A stretch of 35,628 bases of DNA from a virus. Position 1 is the stretch's first letter; each line of letters begins with the position of its first letter. The stretch is taken from IMG/VR virus record IMGVR_UViG_3300046004_000234, positions 1 through 35,628 of that record; one strand, 5' to 3'. This document shows, one piece after another, positions 14,976 through 25,315 of the stretch. The translations under genes were made by a program, and so were the position numbers. The notes beneath the pieces are model-generated. The model was not told the DNA's origin, searched no databases, and saw only the letters and a program-made list of their open reading frames with translations.

Positions 14976-15497
14976 TTACTCTTTCCTAAACAGTGCTGCT
15001 TCGTCTTTGCGGCGATTGTCAAGCCCTTTTAGGACTTTGCCACCGGCTTTATTATACTTGAGAAGACTTTGCATAGCCATGACTTTATCCCCGCGCAAAA
15101 GCGCCTGACGGAGTGTTGACCGCTGAAGTACACCAAGACCAAGGTTAAAGCTAAAACTAACCAGAGCATCAAATTCATTCTGTGAAAGTCGTATAGGTAA
15201 ATAACGGGCAACCCCTCGTTCAAATCGTACGACATCCTTAGCCAGTATTGAGTCAACTTCTTCTTCGCTCCATCTACGGTTATCTTGTGGTTTTAGTGGG
15301 CATGCTTTACGAGTAGCCATACCTTCTGGAGTAGACGGTATCTTAGCTTGCTCTGGGTACATCACATGGCCAACACCAACTGTCCAAAGTCCTGCTGGGC
15401 ATTTATACGGTTTGTATCTGACGCCCTCATGGTGTTTCAACAATTTAATTAATTCTTTACTTACCTTCACGATGCTTTTCCCACTGGCGTGAACCAA
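14976..15497 (-). CDS. GH24 lysozyme (T4-type endolysin, muramidase)
   Basis: A 173-residue endolysin of glycoside hydrolase family 24, which cleaves the beta-1,4 bond between MurNAc and GlcNAc. The catalytic motif is E24 in HHEGVRYKPYKC, then C33 and T39 in GLWTVGVGH, giving E-8aa-C-5aa-T. Cys occupies the position that is Asp20 in T4 lysozyme; this D/C variant is known in the family. The C-terminal helices include LSQNEFDALVSFSFNLG and KGLDNRRKDEAALF, both typical. There is no signal peptide or SAR anchor, so it should need a holin. The start is uncertain: ATG 15497 overlaps the holin-like gene by 41 bases, while an in-frame GTG at 15470 has a purine-rich stretch ahead and would drop nine residues without touching the domain. 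Confidence 0.94.
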   Translation of the reverse strand: MVHASGKSIVKVSKELIKLLKHHEGVRYKPYKCPAGLWTVGVGHVMYPEQAKIPSTPEGMATRKACPLKPQDNRRWSEEEVDSILAKDVVRFERGVARYLPIRLSQNEFDALVSFSFNLGLGVLQRSTLRQALLRGDKVMAMQSLLKYNKAGGKVLKGLDNRRKDEAALFRKE

Positions 15498-15954
15498 AGT
15501 AGAAGCCGATTATGCTACTTACAATTGCCATTTCATCATCAGAAAATACTAAGCTCATAGCAGTGCCAAACTCTACACCAGTATATATTGCCCAACCTAG
15601 ACCAACAAGATCTACTATTACAAGCAAGCCCACAAACGTAAAGGCTATTATAGGACGCACCTTAGCATTTAAATCTACTGTACCTTGTGATGCCTTGTCC
15701 ATCATCTTCATGTCGTGAGCATACAAAGCCTCGCGCTCTTGTGCATAGGTCTGCACTTCAATCTCGTCTAGCTTGATGGCTTCAATCTTTTCTTGTGATG
15801 CAAAGCCAGCGGCAGCCATAGCGGCTTCTCGTTCTGTCTGCAAACGAGCCATAGCCATCTCATGCTTCTGATCGCCCTTCTGTTGAAAGAAGCCTAAGAT
15901 ACTTGGTAGTGCTGATGAGCCTATGCCTAATAGGCCTGATATGATAGATAACAT
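15457..15954 (-). CDS. Holin-like membrane protein (GTA_holin_3TM-like)
   Basis: A 165-residue protein. The N-terminus MLSIISGLLGIGSSALPSIL is hydrophobic and could be an amphipathic or membrane helix. A charged helical middle follows (residues 26-92, rich in E, K, A and M), then VRPIIAFTFVGLLVIVDLVG (about 99-118) and a second hydrophobic segment around MAIVSSIIGFYFGS near 143-156. It ends SRQWEKHREGK. The RP before the first strong span and the FYFGSRQWEK end match my memory of the holin-of-3TMs family found in gene transfer agents and many phages. It lies directly before lysozyme and overlaps it, where a holin is expected. A holin role is the best reading, short of proof. Confidence 0.72.
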   Translation of the reverse strand: MLSIISGLLGIGSSALPSILGFFQQKGDQKHEMAMARLQTEREAAMAAAGFASQEKIEAIKLDEIEVQTYAQEREALYAHDMKMMDKASQGTVDLNAKVRPIIAFTFVGLLVIVDLVGLGWAIYTGVEFGTAMSLVFSDDEMAIVSSIIGFYFGSRQWEKHREGK

Positions 15955-15956
15955 AA

Positions 15957-16427
15957 TTAATTCCCCAGTGGATTTGACGTTGCCCGTTTAAGGGCTTTTA
16001 GTTGTGATTCAATGCCTTCGCGGGTGGCTTTCATCTCTTCCCGCACACCCATTAAAGACGCGGCAGTTTCACGTACATTGCCGTTAGTAATTGCTTTAGC
16101 TTCGTTAGCAGTGCCAATGGCGTTTGATACCTTCTCTTGCATGGACACCAATTGGTTTGATGTTTGCACCATCGAGTCTTTAACTACGTTTACTGAAGCT
16201 TGCTGTGCAGACAACTGCACCTTTAGTGCGTTGACTTCTGCTTTTAACTCGGCATCGTCGTAGGGTTTAGCAGCTTCAATCGCTTCAGTCGCCGCTATAA
16301 CTCGGTTGTAGGTCGTTATGCCGACGTAGATTGTTCCACCTATCGGCGCTAATACTCCAAAAAGAACTACTAATAGCGTTTTCGCTGAGTAGTTCGAGTA
16401 AGATTCCTTGGTTTCCTTTAAGCTCAT
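15957..16427 (-). CDS. Single-span coiled-coil protein, candidate inner-membrane spanin
   Basis: I choose ATG 16427 because AGGAG sits 7 bases upstream; an in-frame ATG ten codons earlier has no such site. The 156-residue product has a polar N-terminus (MSLKETKESYSNYSAK), one membrane span at about residues 17-37 (LLVVLFGVLAPIGGTIYVGI), then a long helix with heptad spacing (residues 50-145, AELKAEVNALKVQLSAQQAS and onwards) and a short tail. N-in topology with a periplasmic coiled coil is the architecture of i-spanins such as lambda Rz. Its place just before the holin-like and lysozyme genes fits a lysis cassette. No partner lipoprotein with a lipobox is evident, so a structural or regulatory membrane role remains possible. 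Its first 143 bases overlap the 3' end of the cysteine-rich protein gene. Confidence 0.75.
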   Translation of the reverse strand: MSLKETKESYSNYSAKTLLVVLFGVLAPIGGTIYVGITTYNRVIAATEAIEAAKPYDDAELKAEVNALKVQLSAQQASVNVVKDSMVQTSNQLVSMQEKVSNAIGTANEAKAITNGNVRETAASLMGVREEMKATREGIESQLKALKRATSNPLGN

Positions 16428-17577
16428 ATGGTAACTCCTGCTGGTATGCCAGTGCATCGTTCAATTGAATCTCTTGAATCTGCATAGGCTTGTTTAAAAT
16501 CTCTAGGCTCAACACAATCCCAAAGCCTGGCACTAGTTCCTTGCCCTTCGGAACTTCTGGCTGCGATGTAGTCGGTGTTTGTGTTGTCTCTTGGGTCGTA
16601 GTCGTTGCAGTGGGCGCAGGGGAAGCTGGTATGCTCGGCATCTCCATTGCTGGTTGCTCTTGTTGCTGTACTACTGTCTCCTGCATCGTTGGTGCTATTG
16701 GACTGACTGGATTCAACGGACTGCTCATGTTCGTTACGTTGGTTGGACTCTTGGTGCAGGTATCCTGAGTCACCATCCAGCTGCTCCACACAGGCTCGCT
16801 GTAAGGTGTCGCGCAACTCGACATCCTGTTTTCCGTTACTGCTCCGATGTAATCTTCCTGACATGCTAAAGTCCTAACCTGCGTTGATACTGAACACGTT
16901 GCCGGGTCTGGTGTGCATGAATTTGACACCGTTGTCCACACGCCTTCCGTTGGTTGTCCATACGGGTCCGAGCAAACGCTTGTCTTGGTTTGCTGTATTG
17001 AGCCTGAAAAGTTTTGTGGACATACTAAGCTTTGGCTTTCAACGGCTGTTTGGCAGGTTGGCGGAGCGGCTTGGCAAGACCTGCTGATTTCAAACCATCC
17101 TGAGTCGACTGGAGAGCCGTAGGGGTCGGGACAGTTTTGTTCTCTTTTAAACGTGACCGAGCCGATTTGGTTACTCCCACAGGCCTGCCTCTCTTCGGTG
17201 ACGGCGCTGTAGGTGCAGCTTGCTTGGTTGGGTGTACAATTGTCAGAAGTAGTTGTCCAAGGGGTAAAACTCTGGCTTTGACACTGATAAGTGCGACTTT
17301 GATTGACTGAACCGCTGTGATTAGGGGCACAAGCAAGACTTTGATATTCAACATGGTCTGTACAGCTAGGCGGTACAGGTTGACCACATTCTGGAATACC
17401 TGGGTAATACTGGCAAGCAATTGCTTGGCACTGGGCAAGATCCGTTCCTTGACCAACGTAGAGACTCGAATATACCGGGCCATAACTAGTCCATTGACTT
17501 GCTGCACAATACGCGTAAACATAGCTACTCCTTATGAGAATCAGGCAGAGGAGTGATAAGGACAAAGTTTTTGCCAT
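16285..17577 (-). CDS. Exported cysteine-rich four-repeat protein, thrombospondin type 1-like
   Basis: ATG 17577 has GAGGCG upstream and gives a clean Sec signal peptide (MAKTLSLSLLCLILIRSSYV, cleavage likely after YVYA). The mature part starts YCAASQW and has a short Cys-rich head (IACQYYPGIPECG). Four tandem repeats of about 50 residues follow, with the pattern C-x4-6-E/Q-x-L/A-C-x5-G-x-V/I-x4-R/K-x3-C-x8-12-W-x6-C. Examples are EERQACGSNQIGSVTFKREQ and SQSLVCPQNFSGSIQQTKTS. A Pro/Thr/Gln stalk comes next, then a hydrophobic C-terminus GFGIVLSLEILNKPMQIQEI. Spacing and Trp placement recall thrombospondin type-1 or related disulfide modules. It is probably periplasmic or surface-exposed. The signal peptide is coded inside the upstream gene's 3' end (53-base overlap), and the stop lies 143 bases inside the next gene. 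Function unknown. Confidence 0.78.
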   Translation of the reverse strand: MAKTLSLSLLCLILIRSSYVYAYCAASQWTSYGPVYSSLYVGQGTDLAQCQAIACQYYPGIPECGQPVPPSCTDHVEYQSLACAPNHSGSVNQSRTYQCQSQSFTPWTTTSDNCTPNQASCTYSAVTEERQACGSNQIGSVTFKREQNCPDPYGSPVDSGWFEISRSCQAAPPTCQTAVESQSLVCPQNFSGSIQQTKTSVCSDPYGQPTEGVWTTVSNSCTPDPATCSVSTQVRTLACQEDYIGAVTENRMSSCATPYSEPVWSSWMVTQDTCTKSPTNVTNMSSPLNPVSPIAPTMQETVVQQQEQPAMEMPSIPASPAPTATTTTQETTQTPTTSQPEVPKGKELVPGFGIVLSLEILNKPMQIQEIQLNDALAYQQELPYELKGNQGILLELLSENAISSSFWSISADRWNNLRRHNDLQPSYSGD

Positions 17578-18043
17578 AAATCGCCTCAAACCAATCTGGG
17601 TGTAAGTCATACCATGCCTTTCTTGCTGCATCGCCAATAGCGCCGCCTATAGGACAGGGACTGCCCGACATCTCCATAGCAACCCAGTTTTCATGTGTGG
17701 CTGCACAAGCAAGAGATACTGCCGCAACCTTTAAGCCGCTGTCACTTAAGAACTTAGCCCAGCGTAAACGTACGCAGTTGTTGTCCGTAACCATAGTGCC
17801 ACCTGCTACAGAAAATACGCCCCCGTTAACAGCACCGCTGATACCAATACCGCAAACATCTTGACTGAAAGCTGACATCGAAGGAGCCATAGCAGAGGGG
17901 ACAGGTTGACCCTTATAATTAATTGTTGTTTCGTCCGCATACGCTACTCCTACGGCTAATAGACCGCCGATTAAAAAACCTAGTAGTAAGTACCCTAGGC
18001 TTTTTATATTTGATCGGCAGTGTCTGTGATGAGGTAAATTCAT
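17525..18043 (-). CDS. Exported protein of unknown function with paired cysteines (172 aa)
   Basis: ATG 18043 has AGGAAG 7 bases upstream. The N-terminus is basic and His-rich (MNLPHHRHCRSNIKS), followed by a hydrophobic span YLLLGFLIGGLLAVGVAYA and a likely cleavage site AYA/DE, so it is a Sec-exported protein or an N-anchored one. The mature domain contains MAPSMSAFSQDVCGIGISGA, GGTMVTDNNCVRLRWAKFLS and VSLACAATHENWVAMEMSGS followed by PCP. The Cys residues are well placed for disulfides in the periplasm. I recall similar proteins in freshwater and marine phages as unassigned secreted proteins. There is no lipobox, so it is not an obvious o-spanin. Its 3' end overlaps the start and whole signal peptide of the cysteine-rich repeat protein, which suggests coupled expression of two exported products. 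Confidence 0.78.
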   Translation of the reverse strand: MNLPHHRHCRSNIKSLGYLLLGFLIGGLLAVGVAYADETTINYKGQPVPSAMAPSMSAFSQDVCGIGISGAVNGGVFSVAGGTMVTDNNCVRLRWAKFLSDSGLKVAAVSLACAATHENWVAMEMSGSPCPIGGAIGDAARKAWYDLHPDWFEAIYGKNFVLITPLPDSHKE

Positions 18044-18565: not shown

Positions 18566-19486
18566 TTAAGCAGCTTCTAAGGCAGCCACTTTAGCCTTTA
18601 ATTCGTCTATCATTGCTTGTTGTTCTTGCATAGCTTTAATCATTGCTGGAACAAGTGCAGATGTATCAACAGACCATGTTTTTTCTATGGTTTCCCCAGT
18701 GTCACCTTGAACAACGGCATCTGGCTCTACGTCAAAAAACTCTTGAGCAATAACACCATATTTAACTTGATGACCGCCATCAATCCAATTGTAAGAACGA
18801 ACTTTGACTGCGTTGATGTGAGCAATAGCAGATGGTGCATCAACAATGTTTTCTTTTAACCTGCGGTCTGATGTTGCTGTGTAAACAACGGCAGATGTAG
18901 TTCCAATCCTATCAATAACTCCACATTGTGTGCCTGCTGAAGCAAACAACATAAACCTAGAACCAGACACACTTGAGGATGTGTTTAACGCAAAGCCATT
19001 ATAAGTACCTGAATCATATTGAAAAGTTGAAAAACAAGAACCGACAGGACTTGTTACACCAACTAATAATCGACCGCTTGAGTCAATACGCATACGTTCC
19101 GTGCCATTTGTATAGAATATCTGTTTAGTATTTGCCCCAGTCATGTAAAATTCAAGAGCTTCACGTCTAGTAGTTGTAGCAAACGTAGAGCCAATATATT
19201 GAATAACAGCACCCGAAGCGTCAGTATCATTACCTAAACCAAAGTTAGTTGCACCTGCTGAACCTGCTATAGATAGATTTAATCTTTGGGCGGGACTAGC
19301 AGTGCCAATACCCACGTTACCCGAAGCATCCTTAACTAAGCCACCGTTGCCTACGTTTAGGGTGTCTGTGCTTGCGTCACCGAGTATGGTGTTCCCCGTT
19401 GTGGTGAGGTTTACGATGGTCTCTGTACCTGTGTTGGTAAGACCCGGAGTGGTGATGCCCGTGGTGCCGTCTAGCGTGATTGCCAT
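18566..19486 (-). CDS. Tail fibre protein with C-terminal S74 intramolecular chaperone
   Basis: A 306-residue protein with AAAGGA upstream of ATG 19486. The N-terminus (MAITLDGTTGITTPGLTN) is a Thr/Gly/Asn-rich fibre shaft typical of beta-structured phage fibres. The middle includes NGGLVKDASGNVGIGTASPA and GTERMRIDSSGRLLVGVTSP. The C-terminus is a peptidase S74 chaperone domain: SDRRLKENIVDAP begins at residue 206, giving the Ser206-Lys211 catalytic pair, followed by KVRSYNWIDG, YGVIAQEF and a trimeric coiled coil (QEQQAMIDELKAKVAALEA). S74 domains trimerise the fibre and then cut themselves off. It is the last of the fibre block, so it may be the distal receptor-binding fibre; which fibre contacts the host cannot be told. 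Confidence 0.9.
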   Translation of the reverse strand: MAITLDGTTGITTPGLTNTGTETIVNLTTTGNTILGDASTDTLNVGNGGLVKDASGNVGIGTASPAQRLNLSIAGSAGATNFGLGNDTDASGAVIQYIGSTFATTTRREALEFYMTGANTKQIFYTNGTERMRIDSSGRLLVGVTSPVGSCFSTFQYDSGTYNGFALNTSSSVSGSRFMLFASAGTQCGVIDRIGTTSAVVYTATSDRRLKENIVDAPSAIAHINAVKVRSYNWIDGGHQVKYGVIAQEFFDVEPDAVVQGDTGETIEKTWSVDTSALVPAMIKAMQEQQAMIDELKAKVAALEAA

Positions 19487-19496
19487 AATTTTTCCT

Positions 19497-21047
19497 TTAA
19501 GCTACTTTTACAATTATTCTTGCACGACCATCGGCTTCAATCGCAATGACTTTACCTACGGCTGCTTGATACTGCTCAAAGGTTGGGCTTGTCACTGCCT
19601 CGCCTTTAATTGCACCGTTGTCGTTTACAGGGATGATATATTGCCCTGCTGTTGCACCTAATACATTAACAGGCACTTGACCAGCAAATGCTATACGGTC
19701 TACTAACTGACGAGCTGCTTCTATTGTTTCATCAAATATTTCTTTTTCTGCATCGTATTGAGCTTCTTTATCTGCAAATGTTTCGTCTGTATCATCTTCT
19801 GCACGAACTGGTCGTTCAGGGATTATTAAATTAATAGCTTCTGCTGAACCCCAAGTGTCACCACCAACATAAGATGGGTCTGTGGATTTAACTACAAATG
19901 AAACTGCATCTGCATATACATTAGTTAATTTACCATCTGAATTAATACCAACCACATCGCCTTTGGCTAAGACAAAATCATCTGCTTTAGTCATGTATTC
20001 AGCATAGTCAGCACCAGACGCGTTAATTGTACCGCCAGCATTTATAGACCTACTTGTTACACTATCTTTACCTACTAGAAATGCTGTGTCTGCTGTACTT
20101 GCGCCCCCATAGCTTGCAGTGGACAATCCATTATTTGATGAAGCCAATATAGCGCAAAACCTTGTTCCAGCAGTTACAGCAATTGGGTTGTATCCGTTTC
20201 CTTGTGATACGACAGAAAGTCTACGGTTTGCATCTAATGCCATTCCTGCTGTGAATGTTATAGCGTTACCTGCTGTACCTGATGGGGCTGTGTACCAGTT
20301 ATGTGTACCACCATTTTGATAGTAATACGAGGCTAATGATGTTTGGTTATAAATGAAATTAGTTCCATTGTAATAAGCATTTTGAGTCATACCCATAGTA
20401 TTAGTAGCGTTATAGACTGACCCATACGTAAAATCAATTGCCCTAAATCCACTAGCACTTGTCCATGCTCTAGGCGTTACACCTAGACCTAAATTCCCAC
20501 TAGCATCTAGTGTCATTGCTGGGCTTGACCAAGTTACGGTATTACCAGCAGTGCCAGATGCCGTTGATGTGCGCCAATATGTACCACCTGTTGACTTGTC
20601 AAAGTAGTTCTGTGCAGCATATCCAGTTCCGTAGAACTTATATCCAGATAGGTATTGAAAGTTAGAGCAAAGGTTTATTCCATCATCAGTATATAAACTA
20701 CCAGCTATTGCAATATTCCCACTTCCTCCCCCTGTACTGACCAAAGCACTAGGAGTTATACCAACCCCCACGTTGCCTGATGAGTCAAGGCGCATTGACT
20801 CCGTACCCCCCTCAGCAAACGCTATGGTATCGGCAGCAGGGAAGAATATACCTGTGTTGGTATCGCCTGAGTTGGTAATGGATGGGGCTGAGGCAGAGCC
20901 GTCTGCGAACTCTATGGTCTGTGCGCCACTATTTACAACAAGCGTGCCAGTTGTAGTAGGCAGGGTTAGTACCGTTGAACCTGATACTGCTGGGGCTTGT
21001 AAGGTAACGCTCCCGCTGGTGTCACCAGCTACAATTACACTTGACAT
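19497..21047 (-). CDS. Tail fibre protein with Peptidase_G2-like C-terminal domain
   Basis: A 516-residue fibre protein with GGGAG upstream of ATG 21047. The N-terminal shaft has TLQAPAVSGSTVLTLPTTTG followed by a module (about residues 57-92, DTNTGIFFPAADTIAFAEGG) that is also present in the 491-residue fibre. A long Gly/Asn/Ser/Tyr shaft follows. The C-terminal domain starts near residue 344 with SGADYAEYMTKADDFVLAKG, a hallmark of Peptidase_G2/IMC autoproteolytic fibre domains, and ends with GQVPVNVLGATAGQYIIPV and KVIAIEADGRARIIVKVA. An acidic helical insert (RAEDDTDETFADKEAQYDAE) lies between. It probably folds as a trimer with self-processing. It lies between two S74 fibres, so three processed fibres follow one another. 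Confidence 0.85.
   Translation of the reverse strand: MSSVIVAGDTSGSVTLQAPAVSGSTVLTLPTTTGTLVVNSGAQTIEFADGSASAPSITNSGDTNTGIFFPAADTIAFAEGGTESMRLDSSGNVGVGITPSALVSTGGGSGNIAIAGSLYTDDGINLCSNFQYLSGYKFYGTGYAAQNYFDKSTGGTYWRTSTASGTAGNTVTWSSPAMTLDASGNLGLGVTPRAWTSASGFRAIDFTYGSVYNATNTMGMTQNAYYNGTNFIYNQTSLASYYYQNGGTHNWYTAPSGTAGNAITFTAGMALDANRRLSVVSQGNGYNPIAVTAGTRFCAILASSNNGLSTASYGGASTADTAFLVGKDSVTSRSINAGGTINASGADYAEYMTKADDFVLAKGDVVGINSDGKLTNVYADAVSFVVKSTDPSYVGGDTWGSAEAINLIIPERPVRAEDDTDETFADKEAQYDAEKEIFDETIEAARQLVDRIAFAGQVPVNVLGATAGQYIIPVNDNGAIKGEAVTSPTFEQYQAAVGKVIAIEADGRARIIVKVA
20491..20520. repeat. 30-bp direct repeat shared by two fibre genes, copy 1
   Basis: Bases 20491-20520 are identical to 21935-21964 in the neighbouring 491-residue fibre gene. 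Both copies code for the Ala-Met-Thr-Leu-Asp-Ala-Ser-Gly-Asn-Leu-Gly shaft motif in the same frame. Surrounding sequence differs, so this is an island of identity in otherwise diverged genes. Confidence 0.8.
20821..20855. repeat. 35-bp direct repeat shared by two fibre genes, copy 1
   Basis: Bases 20821-20855 are identical to 22268-22302, coding for the TGIFFPAADTIA part of the fibre module in both genes. Flanking bases continue to resemble each other with scattered changes. Third codon positions are also conserved, which suggests recent exchange or duplication rather than protein-level selection alone. Confidence 0.8.
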
Positions 21048-21048
21048 A

Positions 21049-22524
21049 TTATTTAACTCCCTTGAGTAAATCTATTTCTGCTTTTAATTCTTTAATAGCG
21101 TTAAGCATTAACCATGTAATTTCAGTTGCGTCAAACTTCTTAATGTATGTATCAGCTTCGTCATCTGCGTTTAATTTGGCTTGGTAAGTGTCAACGGTAT
21201 CAGGCAATACTGTCATAATCTCATCGGCAATAACACCAAGACCTTTCATGCCTTCAGTAGTACCACCCTTACCATTGTATGTCCACTCTTTAACATTAAC
21301 TTGCATTAGCTCTGCAAGACCTTTTGAGTAGTCTGTTACATTGTCTTTTAGGCGAATGTCTGATGGATTAGCCCAAGTAGTTCCAGATGCTTTTGTTGCA
21401 GTTGCACCTGTAATAGTTAAATTACCTGCTGTACTGAGCGAGCCTGTAGAAACCCCATTGGCTGAGTTAAAGAAAAGTCCACCACTATATAAATATAATG
21501 GTTTCCAAGCAACACTTGGGGCCATGGATATAATTTCTGCTGAATCATTAGATGTATTATAAGCTAATCCAAGACCTGCGCCAGTAGTAGACCCTGCATT
21601 AGGACTTATTACAGCATAAGATGAATTCCAAGTTCCTATAGAAGCTCCTTGTCCTGATGTTGTTACGACTGATAAATTACCTGTTGGAGTGCCTGTAGCA
21701 ATTCCTAATTTTCCATCAGCATCAATACGAATACGTTCGCCACTTGCATTATTAAAACGCAATCCACTAGAAACAGCATTGCCAGTTTGTATTATCCAAT
21801 CTCCCTCTGTGGCAGTTTTTATTTTAAGTGCAGCATTTGCTCCTGAACCTGAAGAAGTAGACTGAATAGTTGTTTTTATGTCGCCTGTACCTGATACATC
21901 TAATTTATTGCTAGGACTAGCAGTACCAATCCCCAAATTCCCACTAGCATCTAGTGTCATTGCTTGGGTGAAGGTAATAGCATTTCCTGCTGTTCCTGAT
22001 GGTGCTGTGAACCATTGGTGTTGACCTGCGTATTGTCTGTAATGCGTGGCCGCTGCAGTTGTTTTATAAGTCCAATTGTAAGAAGAATTTAAATAGGCGT
22101 TTGTAGCCAACTCCATTGAAGCAGCATCCGTTTGCCCAAACAAAGAAACCCCAAAAGGGAATTCAATAACTCGATATGAACTTGATTGCCAAGCACTAGG
22201 AGTTGTACTAATACCTACGTTGCCAGAAGAGTCAATTCTCATAGCCTCAGCACCACCTTCAGCAAAGGCTATGGTATCGGCAGCAGGGAAGAATATACCT
22301 GTATTAGTGTCACCAGTCGTTGTTATGGCTGGAGCAGCGGCGGAGCCTGCTGGGAATGTGGTAGCGCCACTAGCACTTAATGTGCCTGTTACCGCAGCGC
22401 CAGCGGATGTGATGGAGACGATGGTTGTTGTGCCGCTCTTGATGTCTAAGCTGCCGCTGGTGTCGACGGAGCTTATCTGTACTCCACCTACGCCAGCCGT
22501 TAATGATGATAGTGAGTTTGCCAT
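21049..22524 (-). CDS. Tail fibre protein with C-terminal S74 intramolecular chaperone (second copy)
   Basis: A 491-residue fibre protein. The N-terminal shaft MANSLSSLTAGVGGVQISSV leads into the shared module (about residues 70-105, DTNTGIFFPAADTIAFAEGG). The shaft has repeated short motifs such as MTLDASGNLGIGTASP and RIRIDADGKLGIATGTP. The C-terminal S74 domain starts with SDIRLKDNVTDYSKG (Ser388, Lys393), then LMQVNVKEWTYNGKGG, LGVIADEI and a closing helix ELKAEIDLLKG. The two S74 domains here (306- and 491-residue proteins) differ in sequence, so they are not a recent duplication of that domain. Upstream lies a duplicated ribosome binding site (two AAGGGAAACAT units) before ATG 22524. 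Confidence 0.9.
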   Translation of the reverse strand: MANSLSSLTAGVGGVQISSVDTSGSLDIKSGTTTIVSITSAGAAVTGTLSASGATTFPAGSAAAPAITTTGDTNTGIFFPAADTIAFAEGGAEAMRIDSSGNVGISTTPSAWQSSSYRVIEFPFGVSLFGQTDAASMELATNAYLNSSYNWTYKTTAAATHYRQYAGQHQWFTAPSGTAGNAITFTQAMTLDASGNLGIGTASPSNKLDVSGTGDIKTTIQSTSSGSGANAALKIKTATEGDWIIQTGNAVSSGLRFNNASGERIRIDADGKLGIATGTPTGNLSVVTTSGQGASIGTWNSSYAVISPNAGSTTGAGLGLAYNTSNDSAEIISMAPSVAWKPLYLYSGGLFFNSANGVSTGSLSTAGNLTITGATATKASGTTWANPSDIRLKDNVTDYSKGLAELMQVNVKEWTYNGKGGTTEGMKGLGVIADEIMTVLPDTVDTYQAKLNADDEADTYIKKFDATEITWLMLNAIKELKAEIDLLKGVK

Positions 22525-22525
22525 T

Positions 22526-22547
22526 ATGTTTCCCTTATGTTTCCCTT
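22526..22547. repeat. 11-bp tandem duplication carrying two ribosome binding sites
   Basis: ATGTTTCCCTT occurs twice back to back (22526-22536, 22537-22547). On the minus strand this reads AAGGGAAACAT twice directly before ATG 22524, so the fibre gene has two Shine-Dalgarno sites, at short and long spacing. The upstream gene's TAA (22548-22546) touches the first unit. Confidence 0.75.
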
Positions 22548-23574
22548 ATAATACTAACCAGCTATAGCCTGCCGGGATCGTGACTACCGCACCCGCATTT
22601 ATCGTGATTGGCCCCTTGCTCATAGCAGACTTGCCTGTGGATAGTGTGTAGCTTGTGGTAACAATTAGTTGGTTCTCTTGGAACACTTGGTCACCACCTG
22701 CACCTGTTGCACCACCCCCAATAGATCCCCAATCGGTGCCGTTATAGCCTTCAAAATCACCCGTGCTACTATTAAGACGAACCATGCCACTTGCAGCCGC
22801 AGGGCGTTGGCCTGTCGTACCGACAGGCGTAATGAGCGCACCTGTTGCAGCCGTGCCTACAAAAGCAGAGAATGTACCCGTCGTAGCAGATACAGCCGCA
22901 GGGGTTGTTGCGCCTAGAGTGCCATTTAATGCGGCATTTACTGTAGTGGCAGTCAGGGAAGTAGCCGTTGCCGCACCTAAAGCAGGGGTTACTAGCGTAG
23001 GTGAGGTGCTGAATACTAAGTTAGTGCTGGTTGTACCCGTAGCACCAGAGGCCGTGTAGCCTGTAATATTATTAAATGCTGTAATGCCTGCAGAGGAAGC
23101 GTTGGTACCGCCAGAAGCTACTGGAAGCGCTGTGGCAAGAGTAAGAGATGCAAGATGCGTAATCGCGTCCACTACATTCGTACCATTATTAAACACAAAC
23201 ATAGACTTGCCTGCAGGTACTATCACACCCGTTCCCGTGGTGTTCTTAACGGTCTTAGCCGCAGTGGTAGTGTTGTTTACCAAATATAACTTTTCAATCT
23301 GACAGCCTGCTCCAAGGATTAAACTGCCTACATAACCAATGCCCGCGCCGCTCTCTGTAATATTTAAACGTAAGTTACGCGCAGTTTGGGCAGCATTAGT
23401 ATCCGTTAAAGTAACCGTAACATCGGCAGCAGAACTATAGGCCACGTCCGCAGATCCTGTGATAGCCTCGGTTAAGGCTGTTCCAAGGTTGACATTTGTG
23501 GTCGCGCCCCACGTACCCGCTTGGGCACCCGTAGGGATGAGCTCTATTTTTAATGATGAATAGGTTGAAGCCAT
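22546..23574 (-). CDS. Fibre-type structural protein with conserved attachment N-terminus (342 aa)
   Basis: ATG 23574 has AAGGA upstream. The N-terminus MASTYSSLKIELIPTGAQAG, then TWGATTNVNLGTALTEAI, is a recurring attachment module seen in many marine phage fibre proteins from memory. A beta-rich, Thr/Ala/Gly shaft follows, with repeated LTLATALPVASGGTNASSAG and TPALGAATATSLTATTVN. The last 45 residues (QLIVTTSYTLSTGKSAMSKG, then PITINAGAVVTIPAGYSWLV) resemble the end of the 247-residue fibre protein, so both carry the same C-terminal cap. No chaperone domain is present. It probably forms a stable fibre or adapter on which the processed fibres are built; the arrangement is inferred. Confidence 0.84.
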   Translation of the reverse strand: MASTYSSLKIELIPTGAQAGTWGATTNVNLGTALTEAITGSADVAYSSAADVTVTLTDTNAAQTARNLRLNITESGAGIGYVGSLILGAGCQIEKLYLVNNTTTAAKTVKNTTGTGVIVPAGKSMFVFNNGTNVVDAITHLASLTLATALPVASGGTNASSAGITAFNNITGYTASGATGTTSTNLVFSTSPTLVTPALGAATATSLTATTVNAALNGTLGATTPAAVSATTGTFSAFVGTAATGALITPVGTTGQRPAAASGMVRLNSSTGDFEGYNGTDWGSIGGGATGAGGDQVFQENQLIVTTSYTLSTGKSAMSKGPITINAGAVVTIPAGYSWLVL

Positions 23575-23610
23575 GTTTTAGTCCTTCAGATTTGAGTCCA
23601 TTTTACAGTA

Positions 23611-24570
23611 TTATTGGTTATCGTCAACCACATTCCACCCTGGGGATTGCGTGTCATTTACGGGGGTCCACGTTATTGTCTGTGCATCATTTATAGCTAC
23701 CCAATCAGGGGTTTGACCATCATTTACTTGGAACCATCCACGAGCATATTGCAGATCCAGCAGCGTCATCAATTCCAACACCGTTCCAACAAACTCAACC
23801 GATCCAGACTGGGTATCGGTCATTGTAAATAATTCAAAACTATTGGCTAAAAAGGCCGCGTTTACACTTTGCGTATCGGCTAGTGTGGTGACTTCATCTC
23901 GCACGGCCACAAACGCAGCAAGTACATCCTGTGAGTCCGTTACCGTTTCTGTTTCAGTGACTAATCCTATAAAATCAGCCAATACATCTTGTGCTTCAGT
24001 AACAGTTATGGTATCTACCACAAAGCCTAAGAAGCTGCCTGTAGACGAGCTTGCTTCTAGCATTACTACCTGTTCTTCCTGACTTGCTAGGAAGTCCGCA
24101 TTTACATCATCATTGGTCGACAATGTGATGTTGTTATATTGAGCTGCTACGAAGTCTGCCTGTACTGCCTGTGAATCGGTTAAGGTTTGTGACTCGCTTA
24201 CTGACCCTACAAAATCCGCTTGCACCGCTTGTGAATCAGTTAGTGTTACTTCTTCTGTTTGAGAAGATAAAAAGTCTGCTGCAGCACTTTGTGCTTCGGA
24301 TAGCGATATTGTCTCTGCCTGTGCAGATAGATAATCAGCGAGGGCACTTTGCGTCTCAGACAGTAACAGGCTTTCATCTCTTGCTGCAATAAATCCTGCA
24401 AGCACATCCTCTGCGCTTGATACTGTTAGGCTTTCATCTCGTAGGCATAAGAAATCAGCTGATACAATTTGTACTTCGGTCAGTGTAATGGATTCAGCTA
24501 TGTCTACAGGATAAGCAGTTCCCCCTAGTGCGGCAAACGGTATCTGAGCAAAAGATGCAAATCCAAACAT
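23611..24570 (-). CDS. Repeat fibre protein: thirteen 20-residue repeats and a Trp-rich C-terminus (319 aa)
   Basis: I choose ATG 24570 because it lies one base after the TAG of the upstream fibre gene, implying re-initiation; an in-frame ATG at 24618 would read 16 codons of that gene in another frame. After MFGFASFAQIPFAALGG, residues 26-284 form thirteen tandem repeats of 20 residues (the last is 19), with consensus E-x-x-T-L-T-D-x-Q-x-V-x-A-D-F-V/L-x-x-x-x. Residues 278-319 give four 11-residue units W-x-x-V/I-N/D-D-x-Q-S/T. Constant length, hydrophobic phase and lack of Cys suggest a beta-solenoid or triple-beta shaft. No enzyme motif is present. Position among fibre genes makes it a fibre or spike. 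Function and receptor are unknown. Confidence 0.85.
   Translation of the reverse strand: MFGFASFAQIPFAALGGTAYPVDIAESITLTEVQIVSADFLCLRDESLTVSSAEDVLAGFIAARDESLLLSETQSALADYLSAQAETISLSEAQSAAADFLSSQTEEVTLTDSQAVQADFVGSVSESQTLTDSQAVQADFVAAQYNNITLSTNDDVNADFLASQEEQVVMLEASSSTGSFLGFVVDTITVTEAQDVLADFIGLVTETETVTDSQDVLAAFVAVRDEVTTLADTQSVNAAFLANSFELFTMTDTQSGSVEFVGTVLELMTLLDLQYARGWFQVNDGQTPDWVAINDAQTITWTPVNDTQSPGWNVVDDNQ
23614..23739 (-). repeat. Four 11-residue Trp repeats at the fibre C-terminus
   Basis: Units GWFQVNDGQTP, DWVAINDAQTI, TWTPVNDTQSP and GWNVVDDNQ are aligned with Trp every 11 residues and a V/I-N/D-D-x-Q core. They end at the stop codon. Confidence 0.85.
23719..24495 (-). repeat. Thirteen tandem 60-bp/20-residue coding repeats
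   Basis: The units are diverged in DNA but constant in length, with E at position 1, T/L/S near 4-6, D/E-x-Q at 7-9, A-D-F at 13-15. Adjacent units EEVTLTDSQAVQADFVGSVS and ESQTLTDSQAVQADFVAAQY are nearly identical, pointing to recent unit duplication. The unit beginning EQVVMLEASSS is the most diverged. Confidence 0.85.
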
Positions 24571-24571
24571 G

Positions 24572-25315
24572 CTACAATACAACCCATCTACTACCTGACG
24601 GCACGGTAATCGTAACACCCCCTGAAATTACCACCGGCCCAACTGAACTAGCAGAGTAGCCTGATGGGATTGCGTAGGTAGTACCTATGGTCATGTTATT
24701 AATAACTAGTCCATTTGAAGCTAGTAACTCCGCACCTGTAACTGTAGCTGATACAGAAAGACTTGTGCCGGTTGCAGCGCCTATAACGGGCGTGATTAAG
24801 GTTGGAGTGTTATCTACTACAAACTTAGTACCCGTACCTGTCTGGCTTGCTATGCTTGTAGCATTACCTACTGAAGTGATCGGACCAGTTAAATTGGCAT
24901 TGGTGGTAACGTTTCCTGCTGTTAAACCTGAAGCGGTACCCGTAATGTTAGTACCTACCAAGGAGGCCGGAGTACCTAGTCCAATAGCATTACCAGATGC
25001 ATCTAGCCACAAGCCTTTTTCAGCAGGGTATGTAACAAATACATCCTGTGTGCCTGAACTAAAATTAGTAAGTGAACCACCGTTAGAGGAAGATAACACC
25101 GTTGTTCTAGCTAGTGTAGTACCCGATAGCGTATACGTGCCAATACCCACTTCCCAGTTTGGACCACCCTGATCTGAGATAGTGTAGTAACAAGTATTGC
25201 CATTACCGACAACAGAAAAAGCCTGGAAGCCCGTGGAGGCTCCAAGCAGTGTAACCGTGCCCGTACCTGGCGAGTTCGCGGTCTCTTTTACTCTATCTTT
25301 AAGGACGAGAGCCAT
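24572..25315 (-). CDS. Fibre-type structural protein with conserved N-terminal module (247 aa)
   Basis: ATG 25315 has AGGAG 6 bases upstream. The N-terminal module is MALVLKDRVKETANSPGTGT, then GFQAFSVVGNGNTCYYTISD and EVGIGTYTLSGTTLARTTVL. I recall this module at the N-terminus of many phage tail fibre or base proteins. Residues 100-130 contain LWLDASGNAIGLGTPASLVG, a shaft motif similar to those of the other fibres. The C-terminus, GPVVISGGVTITVPSGSRWV, parallels the end of the 342-residue protein. The protein is beta-rich with no Cys pair or enzyme motif. It is followed by the repeat fibre with a single base between stop and start, so the two are probably made in fixed ratio. Confidence 0.84.
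   Translation of the reverse strand: MALVLKDRVKETANSPGTGTVTLLGASTGFQAFSVVGNGNTCYYTISDQGGPNWEVGIGTYTLSGTTLARTTVLSSSNGGSLTNFSSGTQDVFVTYPAEKGLWLDASGNAIGLGTPASLVGTNITGTASGLTAGNVTTNANLTGPITSVGNATSIASQTGTGTKFVVDNTPTLITPVIGAATGTSLSVSATVTGAELLASNGLVINNMTIGTTYAIPSGYSASSVGPVVISGGVTITVPSGSRWVVL

Follow-up and report, generated by a model that had tools for sequence, protein, structure and literature searches.

Genes and domains of the lysis block

The window, meaning the whole 35,628-nt stretch of viral DNA analysed here (IMG/VR record IMGVR_UViG_3300046004_000234), carries on its minus strand a lysis block in which an exported 172-aa protein with conserved Cys residues (A, 17525..18043) is followed by an exported Cys-repeat stalk protein of 430 aa (B, 16285..17577), a 156-aa protein with an N-terminal transmembrane (TM) helix, a coiled coil and the C-terminal residues SNPLGN (C, 15957..16427), a holin-like protein (15457..15954; GTA_holin_3TM, E 6e-4, below the cutoff, and PHROG holin, E 5e-4) and an endolysin with the phage lysozyme fold (14976..15497). 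No N-terminal TM or SAR segment was seen in the endolysin. Protein A has a weak match to PHROG 20531, whose function is unknown, and none in Pfam. Protein C is predicted to be oriented N-in/C-out, an orientation that the positive-inside rule gives for 50/67 and 53/55 C proteins in two sets; its coiled coil and conserved end would thus share a compartment with A and B. The gene order is constant among relatives, the exceptions being genes lost at contig ends, genes too diverged to match and an occasional endonuclease insertion. The neighbouring genes confirm the original prediction that B lies in a lysis block beside another exported protein, and its homologues likewise always adjoin lysis genes. 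Elsewhere in the window, several tail-fibre-like genes in a row occupy positions 18566-24618; one of them has a significant Peptidase_S74 match at its end, and the protein at 23611-24618 contains repeats of about 20 residues (LTDSQAVQADF...).

Gene B was delimited by its open reading frame from the ATG at 17577 and by IMG/VR homologues; in-frame starts upstream at 17613 (ATG) and 17637 (TTG) may be alternatives. All of its features lie on the minus strand. The product begins with a signal peptide (residues 1-22, 17512..17577), MAKTLSLSLLCLILIRSSYVYA^YC, in which the SPase I-type cleavage site (A^YC) is of the AxA type and conserved among relatives. This is followed by a Cys-rich head (residues 23-71, 17365..17511) and four Cys repeats comprising residues 72-114, 121-168, 175-221 and 228-274 (17236..17364, 17074..17217, 16915..17055 and 16756..16896, respectively). 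The motif N-x-x-N-x-x-S-P-x-x-P then leads into a Pro/Thr/Gln stalk (together residues 275-342, 16552..16755) and a conserved C-tail lacking a TM segment (residues 343-430, 16288..16551). The predicted layout of a Sec-exported protein with signal peptide, Cys-rich head, four repeats and Pro/Thr stalk agrees with both the open reading frame and the repeat analysis, with the exception of its hydrophobic C-terminus. In this region the highest Kyte-Doolittle mean over 19 residues is 0.99 vs 1.58 for the signal peptide, and the C-terminus does not form a membrane segment. Three of the four repeats match the strict C-C-G-C-W-C pattern and the remaining one has one extra residue; residue shuffles gave no match in 19,999 of 20,000 cases and a single match in one. 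Loss of the Cys pattern among homologues, which would have counted against the original prediction, did not occur: 97 distinct repeats from relatives keep C1, C2, G, C3, W and C4 with next to no variation.

The gene overlaps both of its neighbours on the minus strand, by 53 nt at the A 3' end (17525..17577) and by 143 nt at the C 5' end (16285..16427). A synonymous-site test with 14 relatives clearly detected both overlaps, synonymous change falling to 0.03-0.66 of expectation in the former and 0.45 in the latter, whereas the head, repeats and stalk showed no reduction (ratios of about 1.0-1.35). These rates bear on the reading that a gene in another frame, starting from ATG 17522, is real and that the main product does not come from the Cys frame. 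This ATG stands behind a good Shine-Dalgarno sequence (AAGGAG) and opens a frame of 165 codons underlying the repeats. The two alternative frames under B exceed codon-shuffle lengths (p ~0.01), but the Shine-Dalgarno sequence is absent from several relatives. Because synonymous rates fall in the two known overlaps and not across the head, repeats or stalk, a hidden gene, whether starting at ATG 17522 or lying beneath the stalk, was rejected as extremely improbable. The 143-nt overlap is kept within the close clade and measures just 4, 20 or 83 nt in distant relatives; the B C-tail therefore seems to have been lengthened by overprinting into C.

The Cys-repeat family and its distinction from thrombospondin repeats

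AlphaFold2 modelled the B repeats fairly confidently as a rod of three-stranded modules (pLDDT 83, pTM 0.35); the C-tail gave no usable fold (pLDDT 52, not confident). The original prediction likened these repeats to thrombospondin type 1 (TSP1, PF00090), with which they share Cys and Trp residues, a length of about 45-55 residues and extended arrays. The TSP1 fold is three-stranded with Cys-Trp-Arg layers, and the model predicts three strands per repeat. However, each unit has four Cys rather than the six expected of TSP1, and the signature CxxxCGxG is found in 0/130 family members. None of 41 members scanned gave a TSP1 match in Pfam or NCBIfam, a sequence comparison with PDB was negative as well, an HMM made from TSP1 sequences in PDB matched none of 130 family proteins, and profile-profile comparison (hhalign) gave probabilities of 0.9-2.3%, against 99.5% for a TSP1-vs-TSP1 control. 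In a Foldseek search of PDB the repeat model matched nothing at E <= 0.001, and TSP1 was absent from the 50 best matches listed; the only significant structural match in BFVD is the viral protein H6BJ76 (E 1.4e-4, 41% identity, 81 columns). TSP1 membership was rejected on these sequence, profile and structure comparisons, and a true TSP1 repeat protein is very unlikely.

The claim that such proteins are rare in phage holds for named phage records, of which 1/50,697 encodes one (MW202481, from Manatee Spring), and fails for uncultivated phage contigs in IMG/VR, where a first scan found 60 loci and an alignment-based scan 287 encoding stretches, giving a family of up to ~290 loci. The single named record, Podoviridae sp. 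ctXG6705, encodes a direct homologue of B (UOF77515, 44% identity over 86%) in the same synteny, differing from the window protein in having two repeats. UOF77515 is annotated 'transport protein tonB', a label without domain support here and probably a reflection of the Pro-rich stalk; TonB identity was rejected, as neither the C-terminal domain with N-terminal TM anchor nor a TonB Pfam match was found. No homologues were detected in bacterial genomes, which were scanned twice using a small number of peptide patterns, no significant match in plasmids, and none at a meaningful E-value in the PADLOC comparison. The Cys-repeat proteins thus form a real, well-conserved family, apparently unnamed in the libraries and open-access text searched.

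The number of repeats per protein ranges from 2 to 5 among 66 distinct sequences, and repeats have been gained and lost by whole units, producing architectures that include abcd, abe, ae, be, bd, acd, bcd and abccd. Within the close freshwater clade the head, repeats and stalk of B (pN/pS of 0.35, 0.41 and 0.58, the stalk being the fastest part) evolve faster than its C-tail (0.12), A (0.19), C (0.14) and the holin (0.18); the value for the lysozyme is 0.25. Homing endonuclease ORFs occur between A and B in loci L033, L045, L075, L105 and L400, and are of the GIY-YIG type in L033 and L105 and of the HNH type in L045 and L075. Despite this insertion, B in L033, L045, L075 and L105 retains a signal peptide, of different sequence, and export is therefore under selection.

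The A-B-C cassette in freshwater and marine phages

Homologues of A are present in pelagiphages (freshwater-marine homology E 1e-40), and C is likewise homologous between freshwater and marine phages (E 6e-10 over 103 columns). Among usable freshwater A-loci, 66/69 encode an exported Cys-repeat B and a TM-containing C, which ends in N-P-L in 65. In the first marine set (best 80 A-loci, 55 usable), 54/55 have an exported B next and 52/55 a C that terminates in N-P-L, and the second set has an exported B next in 56/56, a TM C in 44/56 and the N-P-L end in 38/56; the freshwater and marine sets are best-hit lists rather than independent samples. In the pelagiphage records examined, A is always followed by a protein of 430-610 aa, usually with an N-terminal signal sequence (the annotated B start of HTVC115P leaves this sequence out, and it is present in the related L291 ORF), and B by at most one small ORF and then a TM/coiled-coil protein ending mostly in ...NPLxx. 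The module is carried by podoviruses, a T4-like myovirus (Mosig) and an Autographivirus. In the T7-like S28-C10 it lies between tail fibre and terminase; the spanin genes of T7 are also located between these genes.

The marine loci, exemplified by Pelagibacter phages HTVC202P (gp24-26), HTVC023P (gp45/46/48) and HTVC115P (gp54-52), share with the freshwater loci their gene order, homologous A and C, and the B layout of signal, ectodomain, stalk and C-tail. They differ in the Glu-rich stalk of B, in often not adjoining the endolysin, a homologue of which (five queries) was near just 20/80 marine A-loci, and in the remainder of B itself. More specifically, freshwater and marine C-tails are not alignable and the ectodomains have no detectable relationship, 60/61 marine ectodomains forming one cluster that lacks Cys repeats; in two marine phage records, B carries its depositors' label 'putative carbohydrate binding domain'. 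Since A and C are homologous across lineages and the B ectodomain is unrelated, the B slot is interchangeable. As judged by these sequence comparisons, freshwater phages fill this slot of an A-B-C envelope module with the Cys-repeat protein. A narrow search of open-access text found no description of the module, which is apparently an unnamed, conserved three-gene cassette in hundreds of lake and ocean phages. Some marine C proteins (L204 6990-7349, L206 5734-6075) have a His-rich stretch, HSHDMPKHSHEVGEHQHDEHGH, between the TM segment and the C-terminal helix, and this stretch is possibly metal-binding.

Possible roles of the cassette

The reading preferred here, and put forward tentatively, is that B tethers C to the outer envelope and aids outer-membrane disruption at lysis, a spanin-like role without a lipoprotein. 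In the three-gene envelope module A is the small exported Cys protein; B combines an N-terminal ectodomain, in freshwater phages a predicted rod of 2-5 disulphide repeats, with a long low-complexity stalk and a C-tail; and C is placed in the inner membrane by its single TM helix, with its coiled coil predicted to be periplasmic. B would fold in the periplasm, its C-tail docking on C or A and its ectodomain binding the outer membrane or wall, and its stalk may be long enough to cross much of the periplasm. The complex would then link the inner membrane with the outer envelope and help to break the outer membrane after lysozyme has degraded the wall. The constant order of A, B, C, holin and lysozyme, the homologous A and C, the conserved C-tail, the predicted topology of C and the T7-spanin-like position of the module in S28-C10 argue for such a tether; against it count the lack of a membrane anchor in B, whose binding partner is putative, the unalignable freshwater and marine C-tails and the low frequency of a nearby endolysin homologue at marine loci.

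Screening the window, the loci of relatives and four complete genomes of A-B-C phages for a lipobox o-spanin gave no convincing candidate; formal lipobox matches were few, and these are antisense or unconserved. The scanned lysis regions of SAR11 phages lacking A-B yielded no candidate either, and the missing lipoprotein is thus not specific to A-B-C. A C-like protein persists near the lysis genes of these phages, and A-B may accordingly be an addition acting through C rather than a spanin substitute. Such C-like TM/coiled-coil proteins, near holin-like or lysozyme genes, are found in the SAR11 T7-like phages HTVC200P (L375 8641-9000), HTVC019P (L377 6974-7339) and HTVC031P (L378 7237-7602), with no A-B in the stretch. 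A more sweeping reading, and an unlikely one, is that A-B-C represents an undescribed and very common tripartite envelope machine, spanin-like and lipoprotein-free, whose receptor-like ectodomain is exchanged wholesale and, within a lineage, shuffled by repeat; freshwater phages would carry a disulphide rod, and those of SAR11 and other marine phages a domain of carbohydrate-binding-like type.

The main rival is superinfection exclusion or receptor masking, in which A and B would act late in the envelope and the B ectodomain would bind a surface receptor or glycan, so that re-infection is blocked or released progeny are not trapped on cell debris. T5 Llp prevents progeny trapping in this way. 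Fast evolution, shuffling and exchange between lineages all affect the ectodomain of B, a pattern that fits exclusion equally well and counts against preferring the tether, and the depositors' carbohydrate-binding label for marine B points in the same direction. Exclusion would not, however, require the lysis-cassette position or the constant pairing with C; B lacks the lipobox of known exclusion lipoproteins, and its pN/pS remains <1. This role is therefore regarded as doubtful.

It is improbable that A and/or B regulate lysis timing as a periplasmic antiholin or sensor of the adjacent holin. T4 RI, the model for such a role, carries a cleavable signal peptide (PMC8385771), and the exported Cys protein A and B adjoin a holin-like gene in freshwater loci, but these proteins are much larger than RI and the module does not adjoin an identified endolysin in some marine phages. 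Quite improbable as well is a secreted or cell-surface adhesin for aggregation or debris attachment with no part in lysis itself: the rod-like repeats and stalk are adhesin-like, the marine ectodomain is annotated carbohydrate-binding and genes for other kinds of envelope export (T8SS/curli; PMC9599517) are known from some pelagiphages, but B has no surface anchor and is tightly coupled to the TM protein and holin genes.

What appears to be new is the A-B-C cassette itself. Few biological entities are as abundant as the phages of SAR11 and of freshwater bacteria. The records scanned here yielded no convincing outer-membrane disruption lipoprotein in these phages, a gap that the cassette could fill; otherwise it would reveal a widespread phage means to alter or guard the host envelope. 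Some of the marine phages with A-B-C have been grown on SAR11 strains in culture, which makes the question testable.

Returning to the tether, known lysis proteins offer partial parallels. C resembles the releasin gp25 of phage Mu (DUF2730; PMC9239132) in having an N-terminal TM segment and a helical domain near an endolysin, and the deposited record of one C homologue carries a DUF2730 annotation. The Mu protein, however, has the opposite topology, N-out/C-in, and the endolysin here has no visible SAR segment; DUF2730 identity was not confirmed, no profile match being found for the window C or six marine C proteins. A unimolecular spanin was rejected for B, in which the combination of an N-terminal lipobox and a C-terminal TM segment was not found. 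There is also a likeness to two-component spanins such as lambda Rz/Rz1 (PMC6139136), with which the cassette shares its lysis-region location, overlapping genes and a Pro-rich exported partner, B. C is predicted to have the features of an i-spanin, namely an inner-membrane N-in/C-out orientation and a periplasmic coiled-coil helix. On the o-spanin side, A-B-C shows no convincing outer-membrane lipoprotein with a lipobox, B having an SPase I-type site; it has a third exported protein, A, and a B that is ~10 times larger than mature Rz1 and carries a folded ectodomain.
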